Shown one piece after another: positions 17,279 to 62,194 of a stretch of 64,000 nt of DNA (the first letter of the stretch is position 1; every line of letters starts with the position of its first letter). The stretch is from Bdellovibrionales bacterium (lineage in GTDB: Bacteria > Bdellovibrionota > Bdellovibrionia > Bdellovibrionales > UBA1609): contig DAIDIG010000002.1 of assembly GCA_027459485.1 (NCBI GenBank), forward strand, positions 186,001-250,000, written 5' to 3'. A model generated the notes under the pieces. The model was not told where the DNA came from. It saw only the letters and a list, made by a program, of their open reading frames with translations, and ran no database searches. The position numbers and the translations under genes were made by a program.

Positions 17279-19051
17279 ATGGCATCAAAAATAACTCAGC
17301 ATAGCACCGCGGAGTATTTTGCAAAAAATCTCCAGCAGGTGGGTTTTTCATCGCCGGTCAAGGCGGTGTTAACGACATTGAAAGAATCCGTGGACAACTC
17401 TCTCGACGCTTGCGAAGAAGCCGGTATATTGCCCGAACTTGAGGTAGTCGTGCGTCGCTTGGGCAACGGATCGGCGAAAAACACCGAGCTTGTCGAAGTG
17501 ATCGTCGACGATAACGGCCCGGGTATCGACGCCGACGATTTGGCTTCGGTATTCGGCGAATACTTGTCCTCGTCGAAATTCGGCCGCGGTCGCTGCTCGC
17601 GCGGGCAACAAGGCATCGGGATCTCCGCCGCCACGACTTGGGCGCAACTCACCAACGCCGCCGGCGTAAAAGTCACGAGTAAAACGAAGGCCATGCGCAA
17701 AGCCGTGAAGGCGCAAATCGACGTCGACATCAAAGCCAATAAAGGCCTCGTGAAAAATAAAGAAACCATCGATTGGGATCGCCCCCACGGCACGCGCGTG
17801 CAGTTTTGCATCGACGGCCGAGTTCAGCTCAATGGTGACGGTGGAATACTGACCTATCTCGAAGGCACAACGTTGGTGAATCCACACCTGACTCTGAAAT
17901 ACAAACTCCTCGATAATGAGGCAGTCGAAGTGAAACGTGTCAGCGACGCGGTGCCTGAGGTGCCGCCGCCAACGCTTCCGCACCCTCATACGATGAAACT
18001 CGGCGAGTTCATGACCCACGCGCACCTTTTCGGCAAAGTGACACTCGACAATTTTTTGCGCAAAGGGTTTTCGAGAGTCGCCGATGAAGCGATCAAAGGA
18101 TTTGTTCAACACGGTATGCCCAAGTCGTTTCTGCATAAGGCTCTGACGACTGTCTCTGAGGCCGAGTTCAAAACGGCATTTCAAGCGATTCAATCAACCG
18201 AATTGCAAAATCCGTCGACGCGATCGGTGATGATCGTCGGCGAAGAAGCGCTATCGAAAAGCATTCAGCGGCTCGGCGAAGTGGATTTCTTTTCCGTCGT
18301 GGCTCGTAAGCCGCGCATCTGCGATTTTAAGCCGGTGGCTGTCGAGGTGGCGATCGCGCGCTTTATTAAGAAGCCGAATTTGAGCGACGAAGCTGAACAA
18401 ATTCAGCTTTTGCGTTTTGCCAATCGCGTGCCGCTTCAATTCGATAAAGCCGCCTGCGCCATCACGCAAGCGGTGGAGTCGGTGAATTGGCGCGCCTATG
18501 GCCTGCAGCAGTCGAAAGATTCTTTGCCGCTCGGCCCTTATGTCTTCGCGATCAGTGTCGTATCACCCTTCATTAAGTTTAAAAATGCCTCGAAAGAAAC
18601 AATTGACGCGAGCGATGAGCTGGTCGAAGAAATTCGTCGGGCGCTGATGCAAGCCGGGCAAAAGCTCTCGCGTCATATCAAGCGCGAAGTGCGGGCCGCC
18701 GATCTCGAGAGAAAACTGCAGCACATCGAGAAATTCGGGCCGATTTTGGTTGAAGCCCTTGGTAAAATCGTGAATGCCCCGAAAGCGCGCGTGAAGCGGG
18801 CCGAAGATGGTTTGGCGAAACTATTGGGCCGCGACAGCCGCGATGCCGAAAAGGAACTCGCCGAAGCTGAAACGCAACTTGAAAAAGTGAAGGCCAAGCA
18901 AAAAGGCACATCTTCAGATGACGGCGAAGGTGGCGGCGAAGAAGTTGCGATCGAAGCAGCGTCCGCTTCAGATGAGGCGCCGATTGGGGCAGATGAGCGG
19001 CGCGGTCAACTCGAGATGGAATTTAAAGTCGAAGAACCCGAAGAGGTTTAA
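17279..19051 (+). CDS. top6B: DNA topoisomerase VI subunit B
   Basis: GHKL ATPase subunit of a type IIB topoisomerase, 590 residues. The Bergerat ATP fold is complete: N-box Glu36-Ser-Val-Asp-Asn40 with DACEE, G1 VDDNGPGID at 76-84, G2 GRCSRGQQGIGISAA at 104-118, then GTRVQF. H2TH, transducer and a charged C-terminal tail follow; the tail (about 530-590) is acidic and Ser/Gly/Glu-rich. It closes an ATP-driven gate so that the A subunit can cut and pass duplex DNA. The start MASKITQHSTAEYFAKN matches archaeal Top6B starts. Topo VI is rare in bacteria. The A gene follows 14 bases later. Confidence 0.95.
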   Translation: MASKITQHSTAEYFAKNLQQVGFSSPVKAVLTTLKESVDNSLDACEEAGILPELEVVVRRLGNGSAKNTELVEVIVDDNGPGIDADDLASVFGEYLSSSKFGRGRCSRGQQGIGISAATTWAQLTNAAGVKVTSKTKAMRKAVKAQIDVDIKANKGLVKNKETIDWDRPHGTRVQFCIDGRVQLNGDGGILTYLEGTTLVNPHLTLKYKLLDNEAVEVKRVSDAVPEVPPPTLPHPHTMKLGEFMTHAHLFGKVTLDNFLRKGFSRVADEAIKGFVQHGMPKSFLHKALTTVSEAEFKTAFQAIQSTELQNPSTRSVMIVGEEALSKSIQRLGEVDFFSVVARKPRICDFKPVAVEVAIARFIKKPNLSDEAEQIQLLRFANRVPLQFDKAACAITQAVESVNWRAYGLQQSKDSLPLGPYVFAISVVSPFIKFKNASKETIDASDELVEEIRRALMQAGQKLSRHIKREVRAADLERKLQHIEKFGPILVEALGKIVNAPKARVKRAEDGLAKLLGRDSRDAEKELAEAETQLEKVKAKQKGTSSDDGEGGGEEVAIEAASASDEAPIGADERRGQLEMEFKVEEPEEV

Positions 19052-19065
19052 TTAGAGGTGTTACT

Positions 19066-20229
19066 GTGGCGAATCCGGCAACGTTAAGAAAATCCGACAA
19101 AGACATCCCGAAAATCGCGCAGAAGATTTGTGACGATATGCTAAAAGATTTGGAGCACGCCAAGCGCCCGATTCTCGAAGCGGTCAAGTGCTCTCTCGAT
19201 AATAGCTTGTACGATTCGAAAGTCGGTTATCTCACGCCCGGCAAAAAAATGGTGGCGACCGAGCTCAACGTTTCATCGGTTCAGAAAATGGCGCGCACGG
19301 TATTTTTTCTCGATATTTTGCTCAACAACATTAAAACGGGCGCTGTGAACACGAAACGTGAATTGTATTATATGGCGAAAGGTTTCGTGAAATCCGACCC
19401 GCATTATAAGCCGCTTGATTTCGACGACCAGAACGAGAGCGACGCCATCATTCAATTTATTTGCGATATGCTCACAGTCTATCGCGAAGAGATGAACTGC
19501 TTTGCCAACGATCGCGGCGGTCAGACCTACTCGAAGCAATTGGTGGTAACCGAGCATCTGCCCGATGGTACTCGCGCCGAAGTCGACCTCGGCTCTCTCG
19601 GAACGACTCCGTTTCAACCAAAAAATAAACCGCAAGTGTTTAAGCTAAAGTCAAAGGGCAAAATTGATTTTTGTCTCGTCATCGAGTCGGAAGGCACGGC
19701 GAACACATTGGTATCGAACGGTTTTACCAAGCGCCACAAATGCATCATGGTCGGCGCGCAAGGTGTGCCGAGTAATGGCGTACGGGGATGGGTGCGAACC
19801 ATTCAAGATCAACTCAAAATCCCGTGCTACTTTTATGGTGACCTCGACGCGTACACGTTGCAAAATATCTATAGAACGTTGAAGGCGGGTTCGGCTGCGT
19901 CACTCATTCGAAACAGCGAATTTAGCGCGCCTGAGGTGAAATTTTTGGGCGTGCTCCCGGAAGACGTCAAAAAATACGATCTGCATTGTTACCCCGTTTC
20001 AGAGAAGAACCCGGCCGATGCACGGTCACTCAAAAAAGCGCGCGACGTTTTGCAAAACGACCCGTTTTTTCAAGACAAGCGAAATAAAAAGCTCGCCGAC
20101 ATTCTCAATTGGCTTTTGAAAAACAAAGTGCGCTGCGAGCAGCAATCGATTTTTTCGGTGAATCCGAAAGACCCGACAATGCCCGAGAAGATTATTGTTG
20201 AGAAGATCAAGCACGGGTCGTTTGTATAA
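19066..20229 (+). CDS. top6A: DNA topoisomerase VI subunit A (Spo11-like)
   Basis: DNA-cleaving subunit of 387 residues. The winged-helix CAP domain carries the catalytic tyrosine in TKRELYYMAKG (Tyr101/Tyr102, the second being the expected nucleophile). The Toprim domain has Glu207/Glu209 in VIESEGT and the acidic pair Asp259/Asp261 in YGDLDAYTL. In most Top6A and Spo11 proteins this motif continues Asp-Pro-x-Gly, whereas here it is Asp-Ala-Tyr, a departure worth noting. The start is GTG with AGAGGTG upstream. Together with Top6B it should form the A2B2 enzyme that relaxes and decatenates DNA with two-base overhang breaks. Confidence 0.94.
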   Translation: MANPATLRKSDKDIPKIAQKICDDMLKDLEHAKRPILEAVKCSLDNSLYDSKVGYLTPGKKMVATELNVSSVQKMARTVFFLDILLNNIKTGAVNTKRELYYMAKGFVKSDPHYKPLDFDDQNESDAIIQFICDMLTVYREEMNCFANDRGGQTYSKQLVVTEHLPDGTRAEVDLGSLGTTPFQPKNKPQVFKLKSKGKIDFCLVIESEGTANTLVSNGFTKRHKCIMVGAQGVPSNGVRGWVRTIQDQLKIPCYFYGDLDAYTLQNIYRTLKAGSAASLIRNSEFSAPEVKFLGVLPEDVKKYDLHCYPVSEKNPADARSLKKARDVLQNDPFFQDKRNKKLADILNWLLKNKVRCEQQSIFSVNPKDPTMPEKIIVEKIKHGSFV

Positions 20230-55088: not shown

Positions 55089-55997
55089 GTGAAGACAGTC
55101 ATTGGTTTGATTTTTTCTCTCAGCATCCCGGTAGCGGCCGCCCCGAAGGTTCAGCCCCGGTCGATTCGCGAAAGTTGCAATCGATTATTAAAGGTCTCAT
55201 TCAAATCTCCGACCCTGATGTTTATGACGATGTTCGCTGACCATCGCCCGGTGACGGTTGATAACCGACTGATATCAGCTGAAAACGGGCGGGATCAAAT
55301 CGAACATTTTATGAAAGTGAGTGGCCGCCATGGAGAACTCGCGTTCCTGATTAAAAACGATGTGCAGAGTCAATCGGGTGGCCCGTTTGAAATTCTCATC
55401 GGCCATCCCGGCGAAAAGGCGGGCTCGTGCGCGCCAACAATGACGGTGACCCAGACGGACGGCACCGCTTTCGATGTGCCGATCGAAAATATATTGGCTT
55501 ATACCTTACTCGACACGCGAAATCGCGATGCCCTTTTTGACCGCGAGTTCCCCGTCGCCTATCTTGGCCCCGAAAATGAAATCGAAAAGGATTGGCGAGA
55601 CAGCTCGTATATTCAAAAAATTTTTTTTCGCGCAAGAAACGAAAGGCCGGCGCGGCCCGAAACTCAGAAGGCAATCGACTTGTATCGAGCCTGGTTAGAT
55701 GTTCTGGCCAAACGTAAAGAGCGTTTAGCCGTGCTAGTAAGAGAACCTTATCGAGAGGGTCAAGAGCTGGTGATTGGTGTCGTGAAACCCTTACTGGAGC
55801 AAGTGAACGGATACAATGCAATCACTGGAGTTGAGATCCAGACTTCAGCCGGTGAACATTTTCGTGTCCCGATCTCACTTAATTCATACACAGTTGGCGT
55901 TTTGAAAATGACTAACGATTCTTATGTGAACCTGACATCCAAACGTGGTTCATATCTTAAGCTTGAATTCAATCGCATACCGATTCATCATAATTGA
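55089..55997 (+). CDS. Secreted protein of unknown function, first gene of a five-gene run
   Basis: Not recognised. The 302 residues begin with a short signal peptide (MKTVIGLIFSLSIPVAA, cleavage near 18). The mature part has mixed alpha/beta sequence, with paired cysteines (ESCNRL and GSCAPT). Two regions look related to each other in outline (TQTDGTAFDVPIENILAYTLL and QTSAGEHFRVPISLNSYTVGVL), which suggests an internal repeat of a beta domain. The start is GTG 55089 with AGGA upstream. Its stop is followed at once by the ATG of the porin-like gene. Confidence 0.7.
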   Translation: MKTVIGLIFSLSIPVAAAPKVQPRSIRESCNRLLKVSFKSPTLMFMTMFADHRPVTVDNRLISAENGRDQIEHFMKVSGRHGELAFLIKNDVQSQSGGPFEILIGHPGEKAGSCAPTMTVTQTDGTAFDVPIENILAYTLLDTRNRDALFDREFPVAYLGPENEIEKDWRDSSYIQKIFFRARNERPARPETQKAIDLYRAWLDVLAKRKERLAVLVREPYREGQELVIGVVKPLLEQVNGYNAITGVEIQTSAGEHFRVPISLNSYTVGVLKMTNDSYVNLTSKRGSYLKLEFNRIPIHHN

Positions 55998-57074
55998 ATG
56001 TTCATCGTCGTGTTGCTGTTGTTAGCCGCGCTAGTGCCAAATGCGGCGTTTGCTGATGCCAATGCATCCACTTCCACCCTGCAATTGCCGGCCATCGATT
56101 ATTCGGGGAGTATTTTTCTCTACGAATATATGCCGGACATGCCCGGAGCCGACCCGAGTTTTGATTTGTACGCGTTTGAGCTTAACCTCGATTCGGCAAA
56201 CTCCGACAAAACCTTGGGCGTTCATTCACAGATTCGCATTCGCGATGACAAGCTTCGCTCGTACTATAATTCTGACATTTGGTTTCAGGAGCTCTACATT
56301 TATCGCAAGACGGATTGGGGTAATTTTAATATCGGCAAGATTTATCGGCAGGTCGGGCTGACCTGGGACAACTCGTTTTTTGGCAACGTCGAATATTTTA
56401 ACGGTCTCATGCTCAACACCAATTACGGTGCCGAGTGGGTGGATAAGCAATCGATCGGGACGGCTTGGGCTCTCAGCGAATCATTTCAATATTTTCCGAA
56501 CGAAGGGCTGGGAGATACGGACGGATCGCTCGCCGGTCGCGATGTGAACAGCGACGCAGATGCGCAGTTGCGCGACGTTGTGACGGCTCGGGTAACATCC
56601 GCGCGCTCGCTGGGGCGAGGTCGTCAAATAATTGTCGGCCTTTCGGGTTTAAACGGTAATTTGAAAAGCCTCATCGCCGCGAATAGAAATTATGACTTCA
56701 ACCAATTGGCGGCGGACGTCACTCTTGATTGGGCGCCGCTATCAATCTACGCCGAAGTCTTACAACAAAATGGCGAGCCCGACGATTCTCAGCATCCGTA
56801 TAGCCGCGCCGGTTACGATTCAGCTACGTACTTTCTTGGCGGTTTATTGGCTCACTTGACCGATCGTCTTGCCGCCTACTTCAATTACAGTTCGGCCAAT
56901 TATGTCGGCCAAAATGCGTTGGAACAAGAACTGCTCCCCGGAGCGACGTATACGGTGGCGCAAAACTTAAATGTAATCGGCGAATTTGATTATTGGCGGG
57001 TTGTCCCGCACGTTGGTGGCGGCGGCACTCTGATAGACCGTAGCCTCAACTTGGTGGCACAATATAATTTTTAA
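55998..57074 (+). CDS. Outer-membrane barrel protein (porin-like)
   Basis: Protein of 358 residues with a signal peptide (cleavage after AFA near 20) and a run of amphipathic strands rich in Tyr, Asn and Gly. It includes LDSANSDKTLGVHSQIRIRDDKL-type strands and a C-terminus SLNLVAQYNF with a terminal Phe for outer-membrane insertion. It is probably a channel for a small substrate. The family could not be named. The gene starts right after the stop of the previous gene and lies 15 bases before the MFS gene. Confidence 0.82.
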   Translation: MFIVVLLLLAALVPNAAFADANASTSTLQLPAIDYSGSIFLYEYMPDMPGADPSFDLYAFELNLDSANSDKTLGVHSQIRIRDDKLRSYYNSDIWFQELYIYRKTDWGNFNIGKIYRQVGLTWDNSFFGNVEYFNGLMLNTNYGAEWVDKQSIGTAWALSESFQYFPNEGLGDTDGSLAGRDVNSDADAQLRDVVTARVTSARSLGRGRQIIVGLSGLNGNLKSLIAANRNYDFNQLAADVTLDWAPLSIYAEVLQQNGEPDDSQHPYSRAGYDSATYFLGGLLAHLTDRLAAYFNYSSANYVGQNALEQELLPGATYTVAQNLNVIGEFDYWRVVPHVGGGGTLIDRSLNLVAQYNF

Positions 57075-57089
57075 AGTGAGGGAGCATCC

Positions 57090-58385
57090 ATGAACGATCA
57101 GCCAAATTCCGTCGGCGAACGGTTAGATCAAATGGACTGGAGCTCATTTCACACTCGGCTGACGTTAGCGCTGGGCATTGCCTGGCTGCTTGATTCGTTC
57201 GAAGTCAATATCATCGGCAGTGTTTTAGCCGTTTTAAAAAAAATATGGGCTATTACAGAATTTCAAAGTTCGCTTCTCGTCAGCGTCTGGCTCATTGGGA
57301 TAATGGTTGGTGCGTTGTTCTTCGGGTATCTCGCCGATCGGTACGGTCGACGTAAACTTTTTTTGATCACGCTTTTGATTTATTCATTTTTCACTCTTAT
57401 TTCGGCCATTTCGCCAGGGTACTATTGGTTTCTGATTTTTCGTTTTCTGACGGCGATTGGCGTCGGTGCCGAGTATTCCGCGATCAATTCGGCGATTAGC
57501 GAGATGATCCCGGCGCGTTTTCGCGGTCGAGCCAACGCATGGGTTATGAATTTTTGGCCGATTGGCGGGGTACTCGCAGCTTTAGTGAGCCTGTTTCTGA
57601 TTAGCGCCTTGCCCGCGACAATCGGCTGGCGATTGTCGTTCGGGTTTGGCGCCATCATTGCCGTTTTCACTCTCTGGGCGAGACGACACATACCCGAGTC
57701 GCCGCGCTGGCTCGCGAAACGCGGTGAACGGCCGTTTTGGCAGCAACTAAAGAGTCTTTTGCAACGCTGCCCGGGGCGATTGGCGATCGGCTGCGCACTC
57801 GATTTTTCAGAAGCATCGGGCTACTACGGCATATTCGCATTCCTTCCACTTATTGTATTACCGAAAGCTGGGATATCCGCAGAAAAGATGCCGTGGTTTT
57901 TTATCATAGGCAACTTGGGCGCGGCAGTTGGCGGAATTTTGGCCGCGTGGGCGCTTGATCGAGTCGGACGAAAAATCACCGTTATGAGTTTTTACTTGCT
58001 CGCAGCGCTCTCGATGTTCGGGATGGCTGTCGCCACGCGCGAGGAGAGTGCCGCCGGTATTTGCGCCGCATTTATCGTCGCGAATTTTTGCGCGACTGGT
58101 AGTTGGATTTCGGCCTATCCGTTTTTTTCAGAAATCTTCCCCACGGATTTGCGTTCGACCGGTATCGGGTTTTCGGTCGCCTTCGGTCGAATCGGTGCGG
58201 CGATCGCGCCACCCGTGCTCGTTTTTATTGCGAGTCGGTGGACACCGACAGCAGGTTTTGCACTGCTGGCGGTATTCTGGCTCATCGGTTTTTTTGCTAT
58301 GATCCCATGGTCGATTCACGGTATTGAGCCTCGTGGCATCGCGCTCGAGACAATCGAGAGTGAATTGGCGAAAGTGAATCTATGA
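57090..58385 (+). CDS. MFS transporter
   Basis: Transporter of 431 residues with 12 predicted helices. It has the MFS loop motif GYLADRYGRRK after helix 2, the central AWALDRVGRKI repeat after helix 8, and the helix-6 PESPRWL motif of sugar/organic-acid porters. The substrate is not fixed by sequence. It is preceded by a strong AGGGAG ribosome site. The stop overlaps the radical SAM start by four bases, so coupled translation and a joint function with it are likely. Confidence 0.92.
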   Translation: MNDQPNSVGERLDQMDWSSFHTRLTLALGIAWLLDSFEVNIIGSVLAVLKKIWAITEFQSSLLVSVWLIGIMVGALFFGYLADRYGRRKLFLITLLIYSFFTLISAISPGYYWFLIFRFLTAIGVGAEYSAINSAISEMIPARFRGRANAWVMNFWPIGGVLAALVSLFLISALPATIGWRLSFGFGAIIAVFTLWARRHIPESPRWLAKRGERPFWQQLKSLLQRCPGRLAIGCALDFSEASGYYGIFAFLPLIVLPKAGISAEKMPWFFIIGNLGAAVGGILAAWALDRVGRKITVMSFYLLAALSMFGMAVATREESAAGICAAFIVANFCATGSWISAYPFFSEIFPTDLRSTGIGFSVAFGRIGAAIAPPVLVFIASRWTPTAGFALLAVFWLIGFFAMIPWSIHGIEPRGIALETIESELAKVNL

Positions 58386-59287
58386 CGACGGGCCAAGTAG
58401 TTGGGCCTACAACAGCCGAAGGCGAAAAAAAATTCCCATTTGCGCCGCTGGCGGCTCTTGATGTTCTCTGGCTGCAAGTCGCCGGGACGATTTGCAACTT
58501 GAAATGCAGTCATTGTTTTATTTCGTGTTCACCGACCAACCACAGTCACGAGATGATGTCGCTGGCGCATGTCCGCAGTTTATTAGATGAAGCCAAAACG
58601 TTGGGAGTCAAAGAATATTACTTCACAGGCGGCGAGCCCTTTCTCAATCGCGATTTACTTATAATGTTTGAAGTCGCGCTGGCCCAAGGGCCTGTGTCCG
58701 TGCTGACGAATGGGATTCTCATCACTCCGAAAGTGGCGGCGCGATTGCGCGAGTTATCCGATGCGAGCGAGCACAGCCTGGACATCCGCGTTTCGCTCGA
58801 CGGGTATGATGCAGAAACGCATGACGCGATTCGCGGGCGTGGCATGTTTCAGCGCGCGATCAAAGGGGTTATGAATTTAAATAGCGCCGGGCTCGTCCCC
58901 GTCATTACAGCTGCCGAAGTGACGGATGACATCGGTGCCGAGCGCGGTCGCGCCCAATTCCTTGAGATGCTGAAATCACTCGGCGTGAACCGGCCGCGTC
59001 TTAAAATTTTGCCAATTCTTCGTATGGGTGCTGAAGTCGAACGAACGCGGGCCTATCAAGAGTGGGAAAGTCTTCGCGGTCATACGCTCAGTGAAACAGA
59101 AGCGGCAAGGCTTCAATGTAACTCTTGCCGAATGGCGACTTCCAAAGGAGTGTACGTTTGCCCGCTTCTCATCGAACAGGACGGCGCGCGCATGGGTGAT
59201 CGGCTCACCGATACTCTGGGGCCGTTTGAATTAAAACATTCGGCCTGTTTTACTTGTCACTCGACGGGGTTTTCGTGTCGAACCTAA
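58382..59287 (+). CDS. Radical SAM protein with Cys-rich SPASM-like tail
   Basis: Protein of 301 residues. The cluster motif is GTICNLKCSHCFISC (Cys38, 42, 45), and FTGGEPFLN is the SAM-binding GGEP region. RVSLDGYDAETHDAIRG fits typical radical SAM strand/helix pairs. The last 55 residues carry further Cys (CNSCRMA, VCPLL, CFTCH, SCRT) that could bind auxiliary iron-sulphur clusters, as in SPASM/Twitch proteins. It overlaps the MFS gene by four bases and the phosphoesterase-like gene by 13. The reaction is unknown; modification of a small molecule or peptide is possible. Confidence 0.9.
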   Translation: MTTGQVVGPTTAEGEKKFPFAPLAALDVLWLQVAGTICNLKCSHCFISCSPTNHSHEMMSLAHVRSLLDEAKTLGVKEYYFTGGEPFLNRDLLIMFEVALAQGPVSVLTNGILITPKVAARLRELSDASEHSLDIRVSLDGYDAETHDAIRGRGMFQRAIKGVMNLNSAGLVPVITAAEVTDDIGAERGRAQFLEMLKSLGVNRPRLKILPILRMGAEVERTRAYQEWESLRGHTLSETEAARLQCNSCRMATSKGVYVCPLLIEQDGARMGDRLTDTLGPFELKHSACFTCHSTGFSCRT

Positions 59288-60111
59288 TCGGCGCCAATCA
59301 GCAAATGCGTTACGCGAATCTCGAATCGTATGATCGCGTATTATTCATCGGCGGTATTTATTCGAATTATCTCGCCTTAGAGAAGGCCTTCACTATGGCG
59401 CGTTCATTGAAGGCTGAGGCCGTAATCGTAATGGGTGATTTCGGTGGATTTGGTCCGTTTCCCGATCGCACGCTCGAGCTGTTGCGCCGAGAAAAGATTT
59501 TTGCGATTCAAGGGAATTACGAAGAAGCTCTGGCGGGCGGCGCCGAAGATTGCGGGTGCGGTTACACAGACCCGCGCGACAATCACTACGCGCAAATTTC
59601 TTATGATTACACCCGATCATGCACGAGCGCCGAGCACGTTCGCTGGATGGGCGAGCTCCCGCGGTATATTCGACTCTCGATCGGCGGTCAACGCACGCTT
59701 GTCTGTCACGGTTCACCGCGACAGATTAACGAATTTTTATGGCAAACGATGACGCCAAGACCATTCATTGAAAAGATGCTTCGTGACTTCGACACGGACC
59801 TCATCATCTGCACTCACACCGGGCTTCACTGGTCGCGTTTTATTGAGCCCGGGCGCGGAGTCGTGAACGTCGGTGCCCTCGGCCGACCGGCCAATGACGG
59901 CAAAACAAACGTGTGGATGAGTTTGCTCGAATGGCAAGATTACGGCTTTCGGGCTGAGTTCATACCTATCGAATACGATTTTGATCGACTAGCCCGTGAG
60001 ATGGAGAGTGAGAAACTTCCACCTGAATTTGTTGCCACCATTCGAACTGGATGGTGGACAACCTGCCTTGAGGTCTTACCGGCAAAAGAGCGAGCGCGCG
60101 GCCAATTTTAA
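59275..60111 (+). CDS. Metallophosphoesterase-like protein with an altered first metal motif
   Basis: Calcineurin-like fold of 278 residues: GGIYSNYLALEKAF at 26-39, VMGDFGGFGPFPD near 52-64, IQGNYEEA near 78-85, VCHGSPRQ near 141-148 and CTHTGLHW near 178-185. In active members the first motif is DxHGN; here it is GIYSN, so Asp and His are lost, and the GNHD motif is GNYE. GDFGG and the C-terminal His motifs remain. It may use fewer metals or act as a binding protein. GTG 59275 follows GGGG and overlaps the radical SAM gene; ATG 59305 is a possible alternative. Confidence 0.82.
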   Translation: MSNLIGANQQMRYANLESYDRVLFIGGIYSNYLALEKAFTMARSLKAEAVIVMGDFGGFGPFPDRTLELLRREKIFAIQGNYEEALAGGAEDCGCGYTDPRDNHYAQISYDYTRSCTSAEHVRWMGELPRYIRLSIGGQRTLVCHGSPRQINEFLWQTMTPRPFIEKMLRDFDTDLIICTHTGLHWSRFIEPGRGVVNVGALGRPANDGKTNVWMSLLEWQDYGFRAEFIPIEYDFDRLAREMESEKLPPEFVATIRTGWWTTCLEVLPAKERARGQF

Positions 60112-60147: not shown

Positions 60148-61533
60148 TCACTGTCTAATGACTGCGTGCGCATTTCTAGATGAAACTTCATTGCCTTTAG
60201 CGCTTTCTTCAAAGATGACGCTCATTTTCGTGCCCGTTTGGTTCGAATCTATGACCAGGCGCCATCCGTAAAAGCGACAGACAGATCGAACCCACGCGAG
60301 ACCGAGTCCATGCCCTTTAATTTTCGAATCGCCCCTGTTAAACGGTTCACCCAATCGTTCGAGCACCGAAGGCGGAATCCCATGCCCGCGATCGGCGACA
60401 ATCAAAGTCCGCTCGGTCACGGAAATCGACACTTGTTCGGCAGAATATGCGAGTGCGTTGGTGAGCAAGTTCGTGATGAGTTGTTCGAGGTGGTGCGTGT
60501 TTGCGAGCACGGTTGGGTCCGACTTGACTTCGGTCACAATTCGATTCGGGTGTGAAGCCGCAAAACGGTCCGCCACCGATTTTACGACCGCCCCGACGTG
60601 ATTCGCATATAGATGCTTTTGTTCGCTCGTATTCTCGAGTTCAGCCCAACCCAGAAAGGAATTGACTGTATCAGAGAGTTTTTCCGACTCTTTTCGAATC
60701 GGTAAAATATCTTTCTCGGCAAGCCCCGCCTTTTCGCGCATCTGTTCAAGTTCGATATTGAGAATCGAAAGCGGCGTTTTCAGCTCGTGGGCCATTTGAT
60801 AGGCCCATAACCGTGAAAAGCGATAGTTATTGTTAACACGTTGGATGAGCGAGTTTAAACCTATGACCATTTTTTGAAACTCATCTTTGAAATGGCCGCG
60901 ACCGAGTAGCGTCTCAGGTACCGTCTCGAGTTGTGGTTGGGCTTTCGCCTGCTCTGACAATCGCGCCAAAAAGCGTTCAAGTTTGACCAGCGGTTGCAGC
61001 AAGAATGACGTCAATAGGTAGCTTGCCACGAGACCGATCGCGAGAATGCACGACAAAAATGTAATAGACGATCGCGAGAAGTAATCGGGCTTAACGAATT
61101 CGGCGTTGAGCATGACACCCACTTGTAGCATCCGATTCGGAAAGTCGGGCATTTGCAGGTTGAGCAGACGGATATATTTACTTTGCCAATATAACGAGGC
61201 CCATTGGCTGTCGGTCGGCAGCTCGGCAATCGCCGCGACCTTCTTCGCCAAGGGGCTTTCGTAGAGAACCCGGCCTTTGCCATCCCAAATCACGAAGAAC
61301 TTTTCAATTTCGGTTTTGCCAAGTTCGTCCGCCACAATCCTCTCGGATGCAGCGAAATTGATTTTGCGAATGTCGTTTTCTTTGGCCTTGATCAAAGCTT
61401 CAGCGGCTTCGCGCGCGAGCTGATCAACGAGAGCCACGCGATCGCGGCGTAAGAAAAGTGCATGCACCACAATTGAGCTTGTTGCCACGACGAACAAGAC
61501 CGTCAGAATCGTAAGAAAATATCTAACCCTCAA
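60148..61533 (-). CDS. Sensor histidine kinase, HAMP-type
   Basis: Kinase of 461 residues. Transmembrane helix one is at about 6-27 and helix two at about 160-181, around a periplasmic sensor of about 130 residues. HAMP follows, then the H-box YQMAHELKTPLS and an ATPase domain with NLLTNALAYS, DRGHGIP and GHGLGLAW. It works with the response regulator whose gene precedes it and overlaps by 11 bases. The signal is unknown. The gene is convergent with the metallophosphoesterase-like gene. Confidence 0.92.
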   Translation of the reverse strand: MRVRYFLTILTVLFVVATSSIVVHALFLRRDRVALVDQLAREAAEALIKAKENDIRKINFAASERIVADELGKTEIEKFFVIWDGKGRVLYESPLAKKVAAIAELPTDSQWASLYWQSKYIRLLNLQMPDFPNRMLQVGVMLNAEFVKPDYFSRSSITFLSCILAIGLVASYLLTSFLLQPLVKLERFLARLSEQAKAQPQLETVPETLLGRGHFKDEFQKMVIGLNSLIQRVNNNYRFSRLWAYQMAHELKTPLSILNIELEQMREKAGLAEKDILPIRKESEKLSDTVNSFLGWAELENTSEQKHLYANHVGAVVKSVADRFAASHPNRIVTEVKSDPTVLANTHHLEQLITNLLTNALAYSAEQVSISVTERTLIVADRGHGIPPSVLERLGEPFNRGDSKIKGHGLGLAWVRSVCRFYGWRLVIDSNQTGTKMSVIFEESAKGNEVSSRNAHAVIRQ

Positions 61534-62194
61534 TCCAGTACCCGCTGTTTCTCAAATTTTTAATTTGAACTTCAGCTCCGATTTCAGCCAGGCGCTTTCG
61601 CAAGTTGGCGACTGTGGCCTCGACAACATTGGTGTCGACATCGGAGCTTTGTCCCCACACGTATTGCAAGAGCTCGTTTTTGCTCCAAACACGGCCGCGC
61701 TCTTGGCTTAACGCTCGAAACAACAAAAATTCTTTCGGTGGTAAATTCTCGACTAAAGAGCCCACTGAAATGACCCGATTGACGAGGTCGACGGCCACAT
61801 TGCCGACATTTAACGTGTACTGATCCGCTGAAACGTTTCGTCGCATCAGAGCGCGAAGCCGCGAAATTAATTCTTGAGTCGAAAAGGGTTTGCCCAGGTA
61901 ATCGTCGGCGCCCATATCGATCAATTCAGCGCGTTCGTTCGGTGTGCTAATGGCGGATAGAATGAGAATCGGGACGCCCGGCCACTTGTTTCGCATTTGC
62001 GGCAGTACTTCTTTAGCGTCGAATGAACCGAGCATTCGATCCAATATGATCATTTGAATGGGGCTTGATTTCTGAATCTCATCAATGAGCGCCGGCTGAT
62101 TGCTAATATGATCCACACTAAAGCCTTGATCATTCAATGCGGCAATAAGGTGATTCGCGATTCGCACATCATCTTCTACGAGCAACAATTTCAT
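61523..62194 (-). CDS. Response regulator, OmpR/PhoB family
   Basis: DNA-binding regulator of 223 residues. The receiver has EDD at 7-9, Asp52 in ILDRMLG, and Lys in LGKPFS. The C-terminal winged helix has ENLPPKEFLLFRAL, GRVWSKNELLQYVWG and VDTNVVEATVANLRKRL. It pairs with the kinase encoded downstream and shares a 193-base intergenic region with the divergent pgaC gene, so it may control exopolysaccharide synthesis. That last point is context-based inference. Confidence 0.94.
   Translation of the reverse strand: MKLLLVEDDVRIANHLIAALNDQGFSVDHISNQPALIDEIQKSSPIQMIILDRMLGSFDAKEVLPQMRNKWPGVPILILSAISTPNERAELIDMGADDYLGKPFSTQELISRLRALMRRNVSADQYTLNVGNVAVDLVNRVISVGSLVENLPPKEFLLFRALSQERGRVWSKNELLQYVWGQSSDVDTNVVEATVANLRKRLAEIGAEVQIKNLRNSGYWIEG

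Follow-up and report, generated by a model that had tools for sequence, protein, structure and literature searches.

What passes through, and what is made by, a compact run of genes for a porin-like barrel, a transporter, a radical S-adenosylmethionine (SAM) enzyme and a calcineurin-like metallophosphoesterase-fold protein (MPP)? We asked this of a 64,000-nt stretch (the window, to which all positions refer) of contig DAIDIG010000002.1 from a Bdellovibrionales bacterium (GTDB Bdellovibrionota; UBA1609). The run consists of five genes, of which the last four recur together in other phyla. Comparison of their sequences and neighbourhoods suggests, at about even chances, that these four are a module for the uptake and organification of an arsenical, comprising import, reduction and formation of a carbon-arsenic (C-As) bond. 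The genes are the following:

55089..55997, + strand: secreted protein without a family assignment (starts with GTG; signal peptide recognised by eye); not part of the conserved module
55998..57074, + strand: outer-membrane barrel (OMP), 16-strand porin-type with signal peptide (open reading frame, structure model, Foldseek, homologue context)
57090..58385, + strand: MFS transporter, putative inner-membrane importer (Pfam/NCBIfam; copies at the same place in other loci)
58382..59287, + strand: radical SAM enzyme (rSAM) of an unnamed clade, 301 residues (Pfam/NCBIfam, alignment, tree)
59305..60111, + strand: MPP-fold protein with a Car1-type CxC pair (ATG start; alternatives TTG 59254, GTG 59275)

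Conservation and limits of the gene unit

A scan of 84,980 species genomes gave 36 MPP loci, and in a phylum sample of 369 genomes close MPP orthologues were rare; neither rSAM nor MPP was found in the genus mates of the window genome. The initial annotation had proposed a unit of porin, transporter, radical SAM enzyme and phosphoesterase-fold protein, and the order OMP-MFS-rSAM-MPP indeed recurs in two near-identical Elusimicrobia genomes (loci L036 and L037; identities of 48-49, 70, 70 and 65%, respectively) and in one acidobacterium (34, 59, 41 and 51%). In all loci of the window rSAM type whose contigs reach that far (34 of 34), MPP is immediately preceded by the rSAM gene. Furthermore, both domains are found in a single protein in Actinobacteria (L044, L050, L051) and Rhizobiales (L063, L065, L066). 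We regard it as almost certain that rSAM and MPP are a functional pair and the core of the module. A cluster in which only the MFS/rSAM pair was conserved had been taken beforehand as the mark of chance, but the most conserved pair is rSAM/MPP. The secreted protein had also been counted as a member of the route; since only the window genome and a single genus mate have it, and every module locus is without it, we judge it to lie outside the conserved unit. This genus-restricted first gene is what a chance grouping of unrelated genes would predict, but a gene order kept across three phyla and rSAM-MPP fusions in two further lineages leave that explanation with hardly any probability, and for the last four genes it is refuted.

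The five open reading frames are all on the + strand, and the first three gaps reported initially (0, +15 and -4 bases) are exact. The fourth depends on the start codon of MPP, being -34 with TTG 59254, -13 with GTG 59275 and +17 with ATG 59305. The -13 given before holds for the GTG codon. In the AlphaFold2 model of MPP (mean predicted local distance difference test score, pLDDT, 92.1), residues 1-14 counted from TTG 59254 score below 50, which favours ATG 59305 as the likely start and +17 as the likely gap. Close spacing by itself is no proof of a unit; conservation across phyla is, and it applies to the last four genes only.

The metallophosphoesterase-fold protein

MPP matches Pfam PF00149/PF12850 and, by Foldseek, MPP structures (E 5e-17). 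Catalytic phosphoesterases bind metal through the D and H of motif I, D of motif II, N of motif III, H of motif IV and two H of motif V. Counted from TTG 59254, MPP keeps D62, N88, H152 and H188, whereas G34 and Y36 stand for the D and H of motif I and G190 for the second H of motif V, these three being replaced in 37 of 37 window-type homologues. In the same 37 proteins three cysteines are invariant: a CxC pair, C83/C85 from ATG 59305 (C100/C102 from TTG 59254), and C254 (C271 from TTG 59254). Distant homologues of MPP on 8 plasmids are all encoded in operons with ArsR and ACR3, ArsM, ArsC, ArsH or ArsN2. They carry a CxC at residues 74/76 (five proteins) or 75/77 (three), and the window pair aligns with their CGC 74/76. 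Car1 of Rufibacter tibetensis is described as a metallophosphoesterase turned arsenate reductase in which Cys74 and Cys76 are essential (Shen et al. 2024, as cited in PMC12124457). Since three canonical metal ligands have been lost while the Car1-type CxC is kept, the window MPP is more likely to be a thiol-based arsenical reductase than a phosphatase. Thus, of the phosphoesterase-fold protein seen at the outset, the fold stands and the phosphoesterase activity probably does not.

The radical SAM enzyme

The rSAM protein matches PF04055 with 70 bits. Its CX3CX2C motif (C38, C42, C45) is invariant in 30 homologues, as are five further cysteines (C246, C260, C289, C292 and C299), which makes the extra Cys clusters of the initial annotation plausible. 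The C-terminal arrangement, C246-x9-G256-x3-C260 and C289-x2-C292-x6-C299, resembles the SPASM/twitch pattern (CX9-15GX4C and CX2CX5C) but does not match it exactly. Against the ArsS model TIGR04167 the protein scores 67.3 bits (cut-off 300), and in the tree it falls in a clade of its own (SH-aLRT 96; ArsS clade 100); from its sequence, it is not an ArsS. The ArsS proteins, the ArsM-linked rSAMs and the actinobacterial fusions also form separate clades, joined by long branches with the order among them not resolved. One MPP family goes with all four rSAM clades, and this suggests that they need the same thing: a trivalent arsenical from which a C-As bond would be formed by radical chemistry.

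Two other roles were considered for this enzyme and set aside. For maturation of ribosomally synthesised and post-translationally modified peptides, all matches of rSAM to peptide maturases were far below cut-off, nor was a precursor peptide noticed among the module loci inspected. For viperin-type defence, MPP had no match in PADLOC, and the rSAM core matched pVip just weakly, at 53 bits.

Genomic context

The neighbours of rSAM and MPP homologues point to arsenic. An ArsM-like methyltransferase adjoins rSAM-MPP in 8 acidobacterial loci, and the two tested have the arsinothricin ArsM model NF040538 as their nearest (339-344 bits, cut-off 500). The nearest rSAMs in the window enzyme's own family (29-33% identical) directly follow ArsM (L002-L004, L007). 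In Rhizobiales an rSAM of the ArsM-linked type forms one protein with MPP, and in L006 and L007, where this type is present with no MPP shown, an ArsC-type arsenate reductase gene follows rSAM. Right after MPP, the Elusimicrobia encode proteins of the transferase families TIGR04283 (232.6 bits, cut-off 182; L037) and TIGR04282 (205 bits, cut-off 134; L036). At loose E-values TIGR04283 is uninformative (matches in 13 of 14 control genomes), and weight was given only to matches over the cut-off or adjacent. MPP adjoins ArsS in a betaproteobacterium (L062), and in Bacteriovorax a PhnDEC-MPP group lies about 10 kb from an ArsS-TIGR04283-TIGR04282 group. Additionally, ArsS and a close MPP share 1 acidobacterial genome against 4.6 expected (P=0.038, phylogeny not corrected), which suggests avoidance, as if rSAM replaces ArsS. 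In cyanobacteria MPP (2 of 244 genomes) is too rare for such statistics. On this evidence arsenic is probably the element handled by the module.

One genus mate of the window genome encodes a true ArsS (G004:C33:18450-19352, L081; 449 bits) and neither MPP nor a window-type rSAM, consistent with ArsS and the window rSAM replacing each other. Plasmid p546-1 of Roseomonas haemaphysalidis (L167, NZ_CP061178.1 49271-74197) encodes TIGR04282, DUF547, two rSAMs, PhnD-PhnE-ABC ATPase and MPP, followed by VTT, FAD oxidoreductases and a TIGR04283-like GT2; this cluster is apparently complete and belongs to a cultured strain. A TIGR04283-type transferase follows the MPP-rSAM fusion in the three actinobacterial loci (L044, L050, L051), with an MTAP-like phosphorylase between them in two. 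A FAD-dependent oxidoreductase without assigned family recurs beside rSAM-MPP, often with ArsM (L150, L157 and other acidobacterial loci), and the acidobacterial enzyme may oxidise the trivalent product.

Barrel, transporter and direction of transport

OMP has no Pfam family, and a PDB sequence search with the barrel gave no match. Its structure model (mean pLDDT 69.5) consists of an N-terminal helix and 16 long strands, and the best Foldseek matches in the PDB are 16-strand general-porin barrels. OMP homologues are encoded upstream of rSAM-MPP, adjoining MFS or 2-aminoethylphosphonate-type ATP-binding cassette (ABC) genes, in L036, L037, L043 and L137. The MFS protein matches PF07690 (163 bits), and its best score among all MFS models is with TIGR00895, aromatic acid/H+ symporters (203 bits, below the cut-off of 418.55). 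Copies in the same place are 70% identical in L036/L037 and 59% in L043, and a copy with 45% identity lies beside MPP in Microbispora (L061).

The initial annotation had left import with breakdown and synthesis with export both open. A 2-aminoethylphosphonate-type ABC importer replaces MFS in L137/L138 (with OMP present in L137) and is also found downstream in L038; a PhnD-PhnE-PhnC importer takes its place in Bacteriovorax, and in the Roseomonas plasmid PhnD-PhnE-ATPase sits between rSAM and MPP. ABC systems that depend on binding proteins are importers. Since such importers stand in for MFS, the direction of the module is most likely substrate uptake, which narrows the choice; we infer that MFS itself imports. 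No locus shares ArsM and an importer; this is suggestive only, given few independent loci.

Proteins of about 450-480 residues, apparently embedded in the membrane, are encoded directly beside MPP in cyanobacteria and some Bacteriovoracia (L045:1785-3218, L032:8165-9523, L033:6161-7510). They match no Pfam or NCBIfam family, and an SSS transporter label considered for the cyanobacterial protein was dropped for that reason. They may be transporters of a new family that act on the substrate of the module.

Proposed mechanism and alternative explanations

In the scheme that we propose, the substrate would be a small arsenical of oxyanion-like character. It could be arsenate, but a methylarsenical in pentavalent form is more likely because no ArsM was found in the window genome. 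It would enter through the porin and then the MFS importer, the thiols of MPP would reduce its As(V) to As(III), and rSAM would use the trivalent arsenical to form a C-As bond, most likely in a 5'-deoxyadenosyl adduct. This step is modelled on the adenosylation carried out by ArsS (Cheng et al. 2021, as cited in PMC12159101). An arsenosugar-like product may then be completed by TIGR04283/TIGR04282-like proteins, whose genes lie elsewhere in the genome. The cysteine and ligand changes, the rSAM-MPP fusions, the neighbours, the gene conservation and the porin-like fold are read directly from the sequences and models; from them we infer the substrate, its reduction, the C-As bond formation, the product and the direction of MFS transport.

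Several observations weigh against this scheme. The window genome does encode an overlapping TIGR04283/TIGR04282 pair (L080 8861-10181), but both are just below the family cut-offs (154.5 against 182 and 115.3 against 134), and genus mates that lack the module have similar TIGR04283 genes. ArsM was not found in the window genome with models NF008823, NF038099 and NF040538, and the window genes have neither ArsM nor ArsR nor ACR3 as a neighbour. The rSAM protein is not an ArsS (67 bits, cut-off 300) and long branches lie between the two. Identity between the window MPP and its plasmid homologues is low, about 26-34%, and these ars-operon proteins keep the canonical metal motifs that the window type is without, so that the chemistry may differ; moreover, the result on the Car1 cysteines is second-hand, through PMC12124457. 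Why a cell would import an arsenical has no explanation in the scheme.

An alternative that we consider unlikely, though the foremost among those weighed, is that MPP really acts as a phosphatase, in a route resembling that to arsenosugars, where rSAM would yield a 5'-deoxy-5'-X-adenosine, an MTAP-like phosphorylase would convert it to X-ribose-1-phosphate and MPP would dephosphorylate the latter. The MPP fold, the Ap4A hydrolase SapH as its nearest characterised fold match, and the MTAP-like phosphorylase gene that comes next after the MPP-rSAM fusion in L044 and L051 agree with it. A precedent is given by the metal-dependent phosphoesterases SalN and FdrA, which dephosphorylate chloro- and fluoro-deoxyribose-1-phosphate, in the case of FdrA as proposed (PMC5947533, PMC7408626). 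However, the D and H of motif I and the second H of motif V are replaced in all 37 window-type homologues while the Car1-type CxC is invariant, the ars-operon homologues have no sugar context, and no MTAP gene lies beside the window genes.

The remaining alternatives concern the substrate and the sense of the reaction. The module may handle a phosphonate or another oxyanion, with rSAM and MPP breaking or rebuilding the C-P bond of an imported phosphonate, given that the importers in related loci are of the 2-aminoethylphosphonate and PhnDEC families and that the window genome yielded no ArsM. Still, arsonates are closely analogous to phosphonates and such importers would suit arsenicals too; C-P lyase genes were not noticed in the loci inspected; and ArsM adjacency, the ars-operon homologues, the exchange with ArsS and the arsenosugar-type transferases all indicate arsenic, which makes this explanation somewhat less likely than the phosphatase one. 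The least probable of the three is uptake and breakdown of a ready-made organoarsenical, in which rSAM would cleave the C-As bond and MPP would reduce the released arsenate. It would fit the probable direction of uptake and the importer-type loci without adjoining ArsM, several of them with an outer-membrane porin, but this rSAM type also has ArsM and the TIGR04282/TIGR04283 transferases, families assigned to synthesis, as neighbours, and no arsenite efflux gene lies beside the window genes.

Relation to known systems

No known pathway had been matched to the run initially. Partial matches to described chemistry do exist (ArsS arsenosugar, Car1), and the combination was not found in the literature searched. 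The arsenosugar pathway of ArsS (TIGR04167, ArsM, TIGR04282/TIGR04283) is similar in having an rSAM tied to ArsM and to both of these transferase families; in some genomes ArsS itself is paired with an MPP homologue, and CX3CX2C is present in the window rSAM. In contrast, the window rSAM has a SPASM/twitch-like Cys tail and its own clade, and comes with a porin, an importer and MPP. Car1, as far as its cited description goes, shares the MPP fold and the CxC, which aligns with Cys74/Cys76, but the window MPP has lost three metal ligands, has a third invariant Cys, and has rSAM as its partner instead of ACR3/ArsR. The arsinothricin cluster ArsL/ArsM/ArsQ (PMC8552651) also combines a radical SAM enzyme, ArsM and a transporter for a C-As bond, and the acidobacterial ArsM is nearest to the arsinothricin model. 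ArsL has 428 residues, CX3CX2C at Cys194-201 and only three conserved Cys (PMC8552651), whereas the window rSAM has 301 residues, the motif at C38-C45 and five more invariant Cys. With SalN and FdrA the likeness is of a phosphoesterase-type protein that follows a phosphorylase in a route starting from a 5'-substituted adenosine made with SAM, which the gene content of L044 and L051 would allow; unlike them, the window MPP is without canonical metal ligands and has no phosphorylase beside it. The module is a member of no named family with confidence.

Other features of the window

Directly downstream of the module lies a convergent two-component system (histidine kinase and response regulator, 60148-62194). 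An adjacent gene pair at 17279-20229 resembles, by eye, DNA topoisomerase VI subunits B and A, which is unusual in a bacterium.

Biological significance

Relatives of rSAM-MPP are found beside arsenic genes in many phyla, and a joint description of them was not found in the literature searched. More tentatively than for the scheme itself, and with some doubt, it is possible that these genes represent a widespread, undescribed pathway in which pentavalent (methyl)arsenicals from the environment are imported on purpose via a dedicated porin and importer, reduced by the thiols of an MPP that has given up canonical metal ligands, and turned by an rSAM clade other than ArsS into a new arsenic natural product, the same pair, fused or adjacent, serving the own methylarsenicals of bacteria with ArsM. 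The literature searched holds two radical SAM routes to C-As bonds, ArsS and ArsL; if the proposed scheme is true, the module would be a third, present in several phyla, and its MPP an arsenical reductase that has diverged more from phosphatases than the ars-operon type has. This would also help to explain genomes that have 'arsenosugar' transferases without ArsS or ArsM. Furthermore, genes annotated as 'metallophosphoesterase' beside radical SAM genes may then encode redox enzymes, and new arsenic natural products would be predicted in Acidobacteria, Elusimicrobia, Actinobacteria and the Bdellovibrio lineage.

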